In this document: piece by piece, positions 7,963-17,944 of the stretch
How positions within the stretch are numbered: position 1 is the stretch's first letter
How the letters are laid out: every line of letters starts with the position of its first letter
Assembly (NCBI GenBank): GCA_030424545.1
Contig: JAUHWL010000001.1
Location: 62,001 to 126,000 of the forward strand
DNA length: 64,000 bases
Origin: Bacteroidia bacterium
GTDB taxonomy: Bacteria > Bacteroidota > Bacteroidia > Flavobacteriales > Schleiferiaceae
Reading direction: 5' to 3'
Translations under genes and position numbers: made by a program
Notes under the pieces: model-generated
Database searches by the model: none
What the model was told of the DNA's origin: nothing
What the model saw: the letters and a program-made list of their open reading frames with translations, nothing else

Positions 7963-9141
7963 CTATTTAACAATGATTTTGCCGTGTGCTCTCTTTTTGG
8001 CCTGTTTATCAAAAAGTTGGTAGAAGTAATTCCCGGCCGGCAATAACGCGGATAATTGTATTCTGTAATCCTCAGTACCCATTCGCTGTGGATTGGCTTC
8101 TTGTACTACTCTACCCATTACGTCTAGTAATAAGAATTGTGTATCATCTCCAAAACCATCTGCCGTAATATTTATTTGGCCGTTTTTTGCTGCTGGATTT
8201 GGAAAACAGTTGCTTTGAACCATATCAAATTCATTGATATTGGCAGTGCTTTGCCCATCAGCTTGCGGACGCCACTCTAAAGTATTGGCCATATTCCCGT
8301 TTAAATTGAGGGCAAAAACAGGGGCTCCAAATCCTACTGTATAAAATAACATGGCGCTATCTAGTTGCGTAGCGCCTTGGGTTACACCAAAAGCATTTAG
8401 CAATATTGCTGATGCTGGTTGGCCTCCAACAAAAAAACTATCTACTTCTGTTCGAAAAGATTGAATTTGCAAAACTTGGATTGATGAACTTGCTCCGCTC
8501 TGTGTTGGGATAATAATATCACCATAGCCTGTCACTACACGGTTGTCCGTATACGTCCGAACGCGTTTGCCCGGAGTTTTATTCAAACCTAGCGAAGCAA
8601 CAGAAAGCTCAAACTGAAAGGTTTCTTTTCTTGATTGTGTCCATTGATCTTGATACGTTGTTGGAAACTTAACTCGATCTACGCGACCTTGAAACGGCTC
8701 TACTCCTCCAACAAGATGGATGCTATCCGCAGATGATCCGGTTAATGCTTGCAAAGTCATGGTGGTGTCTTCTACATAATACCCCATTATAAACCAACCG
8801 TTCGCATCCACACTTTCATATTCTTGAAGCTTAAATTCAAACACCTGAAAACCAACTAAATGATTTTCCTTATTGATTGCATTTGCAAAATTTGGATCTG
8901 AAGTTGCATCAAAATAATCCCAATAATAACTCTTAGAATAAGTAAGCCCAGAAAAGTCCCATGTTTGGTTAGCTCCTGTTGCAGGTATGTTAATGTTTGT
9001 TTCTGCCGCATACCACACTGAGTCTGTAAAGCCAATGGGGCGATTAAACGCAGCTTCTGTAATTGTTATTTGAGCATCGCTAAAAATGCTCATGACAAAC
9101 ATTGTTACAATAAGCATCAAATTTTTTGTAATTTTTTTCAT
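7963..9141 (-). CDS. Secreted protein with T9SS type A C-terminal sorting domain
   Basis: A 392-residue exported protein of unknown function. A signal peptide (LMLIVTMFVMSIFSDAQ) is followed by about 280 residues with no family I recognise. The last 80 or so residues form a type IX sorting domain: it starts near SNCFPNPAAKNGQINI, contains LLDVMGRVV and ends HGKIIVK. Such domains direct cleavage and surface attachment or release by the type IX secretion system of Bacteroidota. It is monocistronic, with its own terminator. Confidence 0.9.
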   Translation of the reverse strand: MKKITKNLMLIVTMFVMSIFSDAQITITEAAFNRPIGFTDSVWYAAETNINIPATGANQTWDFSGLTYSKSYYWDYFDATSDPNFANAINKENHLVGFQVFEFKLQEYESVDANGWFIMGYYVEDTTMTLQALTGSSADSIHLVGGVEPFQGRVDRVKFPTTYQDQWTQSRKETFQFELSVASLGLNKTPGKRVRTYTDNRVVTGYGDIIIPTQSGASSSIQVLQIQSFRTEVDSFFVGGQPASAILLNAFGVTQGATQLDSAMLFYTVGFGAPVFALNLNGNMANTLEWRPQADGQSTANINEFDMVQSNCFPNPAAKNGQINITADGFGDDTQFLLLDVMGRVVQEANPQRMGTEDYRIQLSALLPAGNYFYQLFDKQAKKRAHGKIIVK

Positions 9142-15433: not shown

Positions 15434-15542
15434 TTTATTTTCTGGGTTGACAAATATCGTAAATCATGTTCAGCAGAAAAGATGATCTTATGTGATTATT
15501 TAACCTTTTGCTTTAAGCTCACTTTCAATGAATTAAACGCTT

Positions 15543-15563
15543 ATTTAGAATGATTTTCTAAAT
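15543..15563. promoter_or_regulatory. Fur-like palindrome, distal
   Basis: Arms ATTTAGAA and TTCTAAAT around five bases, about 70 bases before the chelatase-like gene. It resembles the A/T-rich inverted repeats bound by Fur/PerR-family metalloregulators. Regulator identity is inference. Confidence 0.45.
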
Positions 15564-15608
15564 TATTTTTTTGCTTGCTCAATTTTGTTCTTTAGCAGTT
15601 ATTTGCAA

Positions 15609-15625
15609 TTTAGAATCATTCTTAA
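15609..15625. promoter_or_regulatory. Fur-like palindrome, proximal
   Basis: TTTAGAAT-C-ATTCTTAA: the central AGAAT-C-ATTCT is a perfect repeat with a one-base spacer, the 7-1-7 style of Fur/PerR boxes. It ends nine bases before the ATG at 15635, a position where binding would block transcription or initiation. Confidence 0.5.
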
Positions 15626-15634
15626 TAGAGTAAA

Positions 15635-16534
15635 ATGAGAGTTATAAAAGCAGCCTTACTATCCCTTGTTGTTGCATTTACTGCATGTAAATCACCCGAA
15701 GCGGAAACCGCAACCAATGAAAAAAACATTGGTGTATTATTGGTTAATCATGGAAGCCATTCTGAAATGTGGCGAGATATGCTTGTTGACATTGAACACC
15801 AGGTAAAAGAAGAAATCTTGGCGAACGAAAAGATTTCGGGCATTAAAACTGCCTTTATGGAATACAACGAGCCTAGCATTGCTACGCGCTTAAAAGAGTT
15901 TGATGCCGAAGGGTTTGATGAAATTGTAATCGTTCCTATTTTCTTAACTGTTAGTTCGCACTACTCGCATGATATTCCTGTGATTTGTGGAATTAGTGCA
16001 GACATGAAGGTGCAGGAAGATTTGGCCAAAGAAAAAATTGAAGTATACAAACCAAAAGCGCGCGTAACCATTACGCCTCCGCTAGATTACACCACCATTT
16101 TAAAGAAAAATATAGAGCGCAGAGTTTCTGCCTTGAGCGAAAACAGCGCAAATGAAGGTGTACTTTTAGTTGCCTATGGCGATGCCGATTACAACCAACA
16201 ATGGGAAGAAATGGTGAGTGATATTGGCAAGTACCTAAAAGTAAAAACCGGCCACGAAAGCATTGCGTACGCTTGGTGTGGCCACTTGGTAAATTATTCT
16301 ACACAGCCAACCAAAGACGGCATTACCAAACTTTTTGAGTTGGAAGACAACGTAATTGTTGTGCCTCTTTTAGTGGCTAACGACCCCTATTTTCAAGACG
16401 AAATTATTCAAACAGCCGTAAACGAAGTGGCAGGCTCTAGCAAAGTAAAATACGTGCAAGACGCCATTTTACCAGACAAAAACATTAACACTTGGGTGGT
16501 TGACATCACAAATAAAACCGTTGAAACTCTGTAG
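15635..16534 (+). CDS. Lipoprotein with CbiX-like tetrapyrrole chelatase fold
   Basis: A 299-residue exported lipoprotein: the signal MRVIKAALLSLVVAFTAC ends in a lipobox with Cys18. The body looks like a two-domain CbiX/sirohydrochlorin chelatase. In the first half, VNHGS (His39) and SSHYSH (His109, His112) sit where class II chelatases carry their metal-binding histidines. The second half repeats the fold (GVLLVAYGDADYNQQW), but the histidine of HGS is replaced, giving YGD. Ordinary CbiX is cytoplasmic. A lipid-anchored copy suggests metal-tetrapyrrole chemistry or binding in the envelope. The next gene starts three bases later, and Fur-like sites lie upstream. Family assignment is fairly firm; role is inference. 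Confidence 0.8.
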   Translation: MRVIKAALLSLVVAFTACKSPEAETATNEKNIGVLLVNHGSHSEMWRDMLVDIEHQVKEEILANEKISGIKTAFMEYNEPSIATRLKEFDAEGFDEIVIVPIFLTVSSHYSHDIPVICGISADMKVQEDLAKEKIEVYKPKARVTITPPLDYTTILKKNIERRVSALSENSANEGVLLVAYGDADYNQQWEEMVSDIGKYLKVKTGHESIAYAWCGHLVNYSTQPTKDGITKLFELEDNVIVVPLLVANDPYFQDEIIQTAVNEVAGSSKVKYVQDAILPDKNINTWVVDITNKTVETL

Positions 16535-16537
16535 GCA

Positions 16538-17944
16538 ATGCTTGCAAAAACCTTTATACAAGAAGAAAAATACAAACTGCTGGCCACCATTTTGGTGGCC
16601 GCTTTTTTCCTATACTTTTGGGTAGAAGGGCCGTTGCAACAAACCGAGCCTATCTTAAAACTAGAGCAAGAACCCACTGAATTTGCCCAACCAAAACTGG
16701 TAAATCATGCGGGCGAAAACAATAGCCATTACGGCACTGTGGGTGATGCCGAAACCAAAGGCCACGGCAATGGTTTGGTGCTTAATAAAGTTGAAGAAAA
16801 AAGCAAAACAAGCCTCATTTTCGACCCCGAAAAAGATGTTACGCACTCGGCAGATTTTGGCATAAAACTAGTCAACCACGCACAAAAGCTTTCGCCCGGG
16901 CAAGCCGAGTTAAAAGCCAACGCCAACCTTTTTTATGTTGTCGTAAAAGGCGATAATGAAAACCATATTTATACAGAAAGTACCGGCATTATTACCGATG
17001 TGCGTGGGTATGCCGGCCCAGTAAACGTTGCTGTTTTGGTTGATGATGATGGCAAAATTTCGGGCGTGCACCACGTTTCTTCTAAAGAAACAGAAAGCTA
17101 TTTAAAGAAGATTGCCAATGCAGGGTTTTACGAGCAATTAATTGGCCTAAAAGTAAAAGGCGAAAATACCGTTGATGCGGTTTCTGGCGCCACATTAACC
17201 ACCGAAGCCATTGCACAAACAGCCACACAATTGCTGGAAAAAGCCATGCCTGAGCCACTGGTTACCTTTGCAGATGTTAGCGAAATGGATGGATTCTCGG
17301 TAGATGCAAAACTTACCTGGTTTTGGATTGTACACATCTCCGTAATCTTTTTGATGTTTTTATATGGTTTCCAAAAGAAGCTGCGCAAGACTAAAAAAGG
17401 CATTACCATTCTCAGCATTTTATCGGTGGCGTACATTGGTTTTTTCTTGAATAACTCTTTTACCTACATTTCATTTTTGCACCCATTTGTGGGCACACAA
17501 GTTTCTAGCTTGGTAGGGCTTTATGCGCTATTTACCTTACTTGGCGCTATATGGGGAAAAAACACATACTGCAAATATGTTTGTCCGTTTGGCAACGCAC
17601 AACGATTAATTTTACAAATTTCACCCAAAAAGGCCCGCGCCAAGTTTTTCATCCCCAACAAATACATTAACAAAATTAGGCTGGGCATTACCATGGTTTT
17701 GCTAGCGGGCGTTTTATTGGGCATGCGGAGCTGGAGCAATTATGAGCTATTTCCAGATTTGTTTGGACTAGACGTAACCACCTTTTGGTTTTTTATGGCT
17801 GTAATCACTGTATTTTTTACAGCGCGCTACCCCATGATTTGGTGCCGATTGCTTTGCCCAACAGGCTCGGTTTTAGATTTAATTTCTGATGCCGTGAATT
17901 ACAAACCGAAGGTGAAGAATAAGAAAATAGCCATTGCAAAATAG
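16538..17944 (+). CDS. Membrane FMN-binding and 4Fe-4S electron-transfer protein (NosR/NapH-like)
   Basis: A 468-residue redox protein. An N-terminal anchor (LLATILVAAFFLYFWVEG) precedes a periplasmic FMN-binding domain whose threonine flavinylation motif is VSGATLTTEAIA (near residue 220). A group of membrane helices follows (about 265-445), with two polyferredoxin-type motifs, CKYVCPFG and CRLLCPTG. The domain order matches NosR/RnfG-plus-NapH-like proteins that move electrons across the inner membrane. It is coupled to the chelatase lipoprotein gene (gap of three bases), so it may supply electrons to chemistry on that protein. No nos, nap or rnf genes are nearby. Confidence 0.87.
   Translation: MLAKTFIQEEKYKLLATILVAAFFLYFWVEGPLQQTEPILKLEQEPTEFAQPKLVNHAGENNSHYGTVGDAETKGHGNGLVLNKVEEKSKTSLIFDPEKDVTHSADFGIKLVNHAQKLSPGQAELKANANLFYVVVKGDNENHIYTESTGIITDVRGYAGPVNVAVLVDDDGKISGVHHVSSKETESYLKKIANAGFYEQLIGLKVKGENTVDAVSGATLTTEAIAQTATQLLEKAMPEPLVTFADVSEMDGFSVDAKLTWFWIVHISVIFLMFLYGFQKKLRKTKKGITILSILSVAYIGFFLNNSFTYISFLHPFVGTQVSSLVGLYALFTLLGAIWGKNTYCKYVCPFGNAQRLILQISPKKARAKFFIPNKYINKIRLGITMVLLAGVLLGMRSWSNYELFPDLFGLDVTTFWFFMAVITVFFTARYPMIWCRLLCPTGSVLDLISDAVNYKPKVKNKKIAIAK

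Follow-up and report, generated by a model that had tools for sequence, protein, structure and literature searches.

A lipoprotein of the CbiX/SirB chelatase fold and a membrane electron-transfer protein are encoded side by side in a 64,000-nucleotide stretch of contig JAUHWL010000001.1, from a Schleiferiaceae member of the Bacteroidia. We call this whole stretch the window and its own genome, which is 99.97% complete, G000; L- and G-numbers designate other loci and genomes. We consider it probable that the pair forms an extracytoplasmic module that frees iron from heme by reduction, in which a class II chelatase would be run backwards. The gene pair, its conservation, the fold, the lipobox, the heme-uptake context and the exchangeable redox partner were computed. 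In every close relative with readable DNA, a membrane electron carrier follows the chelatase, mostly within heme clusters, and reductive iron release is the best explanation of this arrangement. A sequence-only reading of the window had proposed extracytoplasmic metal-tetrapyrrole chemistry, for example reductive release of heme iron. As a prediction this hypothesis is supported; the pair is real, and its earlier description is partly confirmed. Both open reading frames (ORFs) lie on the forward strand with three bases between the chelatase stop and the partner start, as had been claimed (Table 1). The start given then, 15434, includes the upstream region, and the chelatase gene itself begins at 15635.

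The first gene product matches Pfam CbiX with 60.1 bits (cut-off 22). Its N-terminus carries a signal-peptide-like stretch and a lipobox, FTAC, with Cys18; the lipobox was found by pattern, and both the lipoprotein call and the envelope location are by sequence pattern only. With this protein as query, 43 named loci were retrieved, and conservation was read from 46 aligned proteins, namely those of the 43 loci, two of which have a second copy, and that of the window. Cys18 is conserved in 41 of the 44 proteins that have a residue at this position, which, together with the Pfam match, bears out the claim of a lipid-anchored CbiX-like chelatase. His39 (45/45), His109 (46/46) and His217 (45/45) are conserved among these close relatives. 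In an alignment, the first two correspond to the histidines of the HG and HxxxDIP motifs of CfbA, and we take the role of this dyad to be metal binding. Across the two main chelatase clades, His39, His109 and Met75-Glu76 are invariant in 36/36 aligned members, and His217 is likewise conserved. Of the histidines singled out earlier, His39 and His109 stand and His112 does not, being His in just 15 of 40 rows of alignment A1, in which the window is joined by 34 of the 43 loci (nine were left out) and by five further ones.

The AlphaFold2 model of the chelatase, built from the 40-row alignment, has a mean predicted local distance difference test score (pLDDT) of 89.8. It has a chelatase fold, with His39 and His109 in the metal-site motifs of the family, in line with what had been proposed. 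The best match among solved structures is SirB (Z 20.6, root-mean-square deviation (rmsd) 3.2 over 238). CpfC (Z 18.6, rmsd 3.2 over 242), periplasmic CbiK (2xvz; Z 17.7, rmsd 3.1 over 233) and apo-FetB of Porphyromonas gingivalis (9b86; Z 17.5, rmsd 3.4 over 228, 15% identity) are also matched. The N-terminal domain is CfbA-like, and the score against the curated CfbA equivalog, 77.3, does not reach the cut-off of 120. Pfam CbiK gives 14.7 bits, below its cut-off of 26.2, and up to E 0.1 the lipoprotein has no match to the CobN-type class I family PF02514.

A transmembrane electron-transfer gene stands next downstream of the chelatase in all 39 named loci with readable DNA; the remaining four (L033, L042, L056 and L059) end within 196 bases of the chelatase. 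Given 39/39, chance adjacency of the redox gene was rejected. The partner suggested for a neighbourhood survey, of the FMN/4Fe-4S type (FMN, flavin mononucleotide), is present as an FMN/Fer4_5 gene in 23 of the 43 loci. A PepSY_TM-like gene takes this place in 16, the PepSY_TM_like_2-type label being a Pfam name from one member and the sixteenth gene that of L062 (match at 8542-9084, from a frame check). Loci outside the 43 agree, L073 and L074 with PepSY genes, L075 and L076 with FMN genes that are fused. Lipobox and redox neighbour, whose possible rarity among homologues had been raised as an objection, are both retained in nearly all close homologues. In L020, L028 and L034 the partner is split into two ORFs, perhaps by assembly frameshifts.

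The two partner types follow the two chelatase clades. A single change per type suffices (support 98/100) on a midpoint-rooted tree with 40 rows, of which 33 are labelled, and the need for an electron carrier therefore outlasts the kind of carrier. His17, His40 and His131 are invariant among fifteen PepSY proteins, from which we infer a possible heme ligation. FoxB is a siderophore reductase. It is a PepSY-like protein and binds two hemes (PMC11334425).

In the window, the partner matches FMN_bind (51.3 bits, cut-off 22) and Fer4_5 (45.1 bits, cut-off 22; two stretches). Its sole four cysteines, Cys345, Cys349, Cys436 and Cys440, lie in two CX3CP motifs (345-350 and 436-441), and they are invariant in 20 aligned partners, as are Asp213, Gly217, Ala218 and Thr219. 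The domain matches uphold the earlier description of a membrane FMN protein with iron-sulfur character. The two 4Fe-4S clusters of that description fall away, since four cysteines allow by count at most one four-Cys cluster. The protein also carries an SGAT motif with Thr219, presumably the motif where ApbE attaches FMN. FMN_bind with Fer4_5, two CX3CP motifs and an SGAT site are NapH/NosR/PceC-like features; against the curated NosR equivalog the partner scores 28.2 (cut-off 1000), below NosR proper. An ApbE gene is present in G000, in 23/23 genomes with an FMN partner and in 7/16 with a PepSY partner. As a sign of a covalently flavinylated partner, this co-occurrence is suggestive only, because ApbE serves other proteins too. 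ApbE-flavinylated systems have been described, and the partners of our two clades are of the kinds found there in NapH-like and PepSY-like systems (PMC8238504). The same paper reports a link of PepSY-like clusters (PF03929, PF16357) with iron and with TonB receptors; its main text contains the word 'chelatase' 0 times and hence no chelatase as electron acceptor.

Around the pair, the relatives carry heme-uptake genes. HmuY is present in 27 of the 43 loci, a TonB receptor, sought near lipoprotein CbiX homologues on the earlier suggestion, in 30, and at least one of the two in 32. These calls were made with profiles built from the loci's own clusters, with Pfam names for some members. At genome level, 35 of the 43 have a HmuY match. 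No genome, at sizes of 1.2 to 7.5 Mb, has more than five HmuY matches, from which we estimate that chance would place HmuY in a few percent of 20-kb stretches. On plasmids of Persicobacter psychrovividus and Persicobacter sp. JZB09, the CbiX gene is followed by a fused ORF (1223 or 1211 aa), in which the FMN/Fer4_5 protein is joined to the TonB receptor, and then by HmuY. This fusion joins an inner-membrane-type to an outer-membrane protein with a signal-peptide-like stretch at the joint, and is perhaps a cleaved polyprotein. In the genomes of L031 and L043, a cluster hmuY-TonB-feoA-feoB-hmuY lies away from the chelatase, which has no HmuY nearby. The placement of feoA-feoB ties heme uptake to Fe(II) import and, in these two genomes, points to Fe(II) as the product. 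FeoB_C is matched in 41 of 44 genomes.

The window lipoprotein is the sole CbiX match in G000 and the only protein of the CbiX or ferrochelatase families found there, CbiK-type proteins not having been searched for. G000 has no match to CobN/HmuS, to CbiC (present in just 7 of 44 genomes) or, at its near-full completeness, to ferrochelatase (none in 13 of 44 genomes); the host may therefore need exogenous heme. FeoB and ApbE are present. Contigs C30 and C20, with an overlap of 127 bases, encode consecutively a HmuY-like protein, a TonB receptor and a lipoprotein HmuY, and the first of these proteins has ends on both contigs. The lipoprotein HmuY exceeds the Pfam HmuY cut-off, and the receptor is assigned by Pfam. 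The C30 part of the first protein matches HmuY below the Pfam cut-off, and its C20 part shares 37 to 41% identity with HmuY-cluster proteins from the loci. Best matches between the HmuY/TonB proteins of G000 and those of the loci, at 34 to 44% identity, mark homology, not nearest kinship; the latter was dropped as circular, the database having held chelatase loci only.

We infer the substrate, the direction of the reaction, the electron path and the location of the active face as follows. HmuY-type proteins would capture heme and the TonB receptor would pass it into the periplasm, both being encoded elsewhere in G000 and, in most relatives, near the pair. The lipid-anchored CbiX-fold protein would bind heme between its two domains, with His39 and His109 as the metal site. 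The quinone pool, or another donor, may supply the partner with electrons via its CX3CP site, and FMN, held covalently at Thr219, would hand them to the heme iron. Fe(II) would then be pulled from the ring in a ferrochelatase reaction in reverse, leaving protoporphyrin, and FeoB would import the released Fe(II).

The closest precedents are HmuS for the reaction and, as an envelope lipoprotein with this fold and a proposed action on heme, IhtB/FetB. The demonstration that an enzyme can de-chelate heme is recent and came from HmuS, which yields protoporphyrin and Fe(II) with NADH (reduced nicotinamide adenine dinucleotide) as reductant; the authors' scheme shows FeoB importing the Fe(II) (PMC12583661). 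As is proposed for our pair, HmuS, from the hmuYRSTUV operon of Bacteroides thetaiotaomicron, acts outside the cytoplasm in a HmuY/TonB-receptor system and needs a reductant, but it is a 1,469-residue CobN-type class I membrane protein (PMC12583661) of unrelated fold, whereas the window chelatase, a lipoprotein of 299 residues, has the class II fold and comes with a membrane redox partner of its own. On balance, we lean towards a second, independently built form of reductive heme-iron extraction, in which a class II (ferrochelatase-fold) lipoprotein is reversed outside the cytoplasm and fed by a dedicated, exchangeable membrane donor, in four phyla by record titles. We lean to the same degree towards that donor being a flavoprotein in one clade and a PepSY cytochrome-like protein in the other. 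The phyla, taken from the titles of the named loci, are Bacteroidota, Chlorobiota, Calditrichota and Pseudomonadota; since nearly all records are metagenome bins, errors in some of these assignments are possible.

IhtB and FetB of P. gingivalis are taken here as one protein. Like the window protein, placed by its sequence, IhtB is a chelatase-type lipoprotein of the envelope; its system has a TonB receptor, IhtA, and IhtB has been proposed to take iron from heme (PMC10913741). It is described as CbiK-like, unlike the window protein, which stays below the Pfam CbiK cut-off, and the literature examined names no redox partner for IhtB/FetB. SirB, CbiX and CfbA share the two-domain fold and the His dyad; they are soluble biosynthetic enzymes without a signal peptide, whereas the window chelatase has a lipobox and its relatives have heme-uptake neighbours. 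The periplasmic CbiK of Desulfovibrio vulgaris also places a class II fold outside the cytoplasm but belongs to the CbiK family, and we know of no redox partner for it. A literature search of open-licence full texts, without supplements, found no paper describing the two-gene layout. The sequence-only reading had likewise not recognised the layout as described, and on this point we concur, with the qualification that a nearer precedent exists in IhtB/FetB.

In a phylum sample of 296 genomes, relatives of the chelatase occur at E 1e-5 in 13 and are strong in eight. Four of these eight genomes have HmuY; the other four are family f18, with CobN-type genes and no HmuY among the matches listed. 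The phylum and locus samples overlap (G149 with L046, G087 with L050), and their counts are therefore not independent. Mutual exclusion of the chelatase pair and HmuS was considered and weakened. CobN is matched in 7 of the 96 HmuY genomes of the phylum sample; with up to two candidates scored in each genome, G253 and G290 were the only ones with CobN close to HmuY. Exclusion is not established because HmuS is rare in this sample too. CobN-type genes occur in 6 of the 43 genomes, and in G303, G304, G322 and G326 such a gene shares a contig with CbiC and therefore probably belongs to cobalamin or chlorophyll genes. Five weak relatives fall in family f24, of which the four aligned form a distant group. 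One distant CbiX relative, without lipobox, His109 or His217, has TonB receptors, HmuY and a PepSY_TM protein around it (L072:3188-13437).

Four other explanations were weighed. The pair might exchange or insert a metal such as Mn or Co into scavenged porphyrin in the envelope, as is reported for FetB, the redox partner serving another step; this we hold to be unlikely. Among the structure matches listed, FetB alone is an envelope protein of P. gingivalis, and according to a review it makes Mn-protoporphyrin by inserting Mn, although the same review leaves open a prior removal of iron by FetB itself (PMC13402209). The redox gene in 39/39 readable named loci speaks against insertion, however, as do the feoAB genes in the HmuY cluster of two genomes, which point to an Fe(II) product. 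Metal(II) insertion, as established for ferrochelatases, needs no electrons, so that insertion does not account for the electron carrier. Equally doubtful is a heme carrier in place of an enzyme: the CbiX fold would hold periplasmic heme and the partner would reduce it, the heme being handed on or the iron leaving elsewhere. The weaker structure matches include periplasmic binding proteins, and since G000 has no ferrochelatase match, intact heme may also be wanted, which leaves room for such a carrier; yet the invariance of His39, His109 and Met75-Glu76 exceeds what a carrier would appear to need. Slightly less probable again is reductive release of metal from another imported tetrapyrrole or a ferric chelate. 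TonB receptors take many ligands, and the genomes without a HmuY match include the green sulfur bacterial one of L046, but the heme-binding family HmuY is present in most loci and genomes, as counted above. An ordinary cobalamin or siroheme chelatase that bears a signal peptide by chance would fit the Pfam CbiX match and the CfbA-like N-terminal domain; it is very improbable and was rejected in view of the conserved lipobox, the heme-uptake neighbours, the score short of the CfbA cut-off and the lack of a CbiC match in G000.

Several observations weigh against reductive heme-iron release itself. On the side of the partner, its structure model is poor (mean pLDDT 67.7), and ApbE has clients besides this candidate. 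As for the genomic context, the 16 larger flanking and distant ORFs scanned in the window include neither a HmuY nor a TonB receptor. TonB receptors are common in these phyla, and their count of 30/43 is without a chance control. Eleven of the 43 loci have neither HmuY nor a TonB receptor in the available flanks, seven of them long-flanked (L023, L031, L034, L044, L049, L053 and L057), and HmuY is unmatched in 8 of the 43 genomes. In the phylum sample, this chelatase is absent from most genomes that have HmuY; HmuS being rare in that sample, its absence from G000 is weak support, and G314 (L038) has CobN beside HmuY as well as the chelatase pair. The four aligned f24 members have no lipobox, His109 or His217, and L068-L071 adjoin an ORF of 1,210-1,217 aa with no redox or HmuY gene adjacent. 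In the literature, IhtB is reportedly not under PgFur control (PMC10913741), and disruption of a cobalt chelatase in B. fragilis left heme-iron use unaffected, according to unpublished data cited in PMC6460266, which speaks against class II chelatases having such a role in general.

Two palindromes precede the pair, as had been noted. The distal one has 3 mismatches to the 7-1-7 form TTAGAATNATTCTAA, and the 17 letters of the proximal one are also found upstream of the Maribacter polysiphoniae homologue (L037). The scored motif, TTTAGAATNATTCTAAA, was taken from the window with a threshold of at least 13/16. Within the 43 loci, 21 of the 116 regions ahead of CbiX, TonB and HmuY genes reach it, versus 14 of 392 ahead of other genes (Fisher p 9e-7, an optimistic value because genes were not thinned for kinship). 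Partner genes (0/24) and PepSY genes (0/15) were kept apart. The best of 60 permuted half-sites gave 7/116, none being higher. A permuted-motif ratio test was noisy: 15 of 60 matched the ratio on tiny counts and none matched the count. The palindrome may be a Fur-type site; our literature search found no paper on a Bacteroidota Fur box. Low iron induces hfp, a HmuY/TonB-type operon of Flavobacterium psychrophilum (PMC9331221), which establishes an iron response for a related operon, not for the chelatase pair.

Table 1 Features of the chelatase locus in the window and of related loci
Feature	Position	Strand	Remarks
Lipoprotein chelatase, CbiX/SirB fold	15635..16534	+	299 aa; Pfam CbiX, conservation, AlphaFold2 model
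Membrane FMN-binding/NapH-like electron-transfer protein	16538..17944	+	468 aa; Pfam FMN_bind and Fer4_5
Imperfect palindrome TTTAGA-N7-TCTAAA, distal copy	15544..15562		Read in the sequence
Proximal palindrome TTTAGAATCATTCTTAA	15609..15625		15/16 to TTTAGAATNATTCTAAA; starts 26 bases before the start codon
FMN/Fer4_5-TonB receptor fusion	L075:7947-11618 and L076:7962-11597		Two Persicobacter plasmids
feoA-feoB inside hmuY-TonB-hmuY cluster	L077:2912-9840 and L078:4982-11867		

Upstream of the pair, the minus strand encodes a 697-aa E1/transketolase-type dehydrogenase, and a DUF2975 protein is encoded downstream. In heme clusters of the relatives, a small DUF6686-type protein (about 105-120 aa) recurs (L021:12261-12575, L075:6632-6955), with similar proteins in L022, L030, L047 and L061. 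In L021 (8615-9853) and L022 (8656-9912), HmuY bears a Por_Secre_tail, the mark of type IX secretion, and a second HmuY stands behind the TonB receptor; that of L021 is a lipoprotein by its start, so that one carrier is perhaps secreted and one anchored. In the green sulfur bacterial locus L046 (310-2980), from a genome without a HmuY match, two CbiX lipoprotein copies lie around the PepSY gene; the substrate of this system may differ.

If heme-iron release by the pair is true, bacteria would have another way to use heme as an iron source, which could explain heme-iron use in HmuY-bearing bacteria that have the pair but are without HmuS. The in vivo electron donor of HmuS is stated to be unresolved (PMC13227078), whereas here the gene layout itself proposes a donor for reductive de-chelation. 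The pair would thereby offer a fairly small system of two proteins for direct tests of reductive de-chelation.

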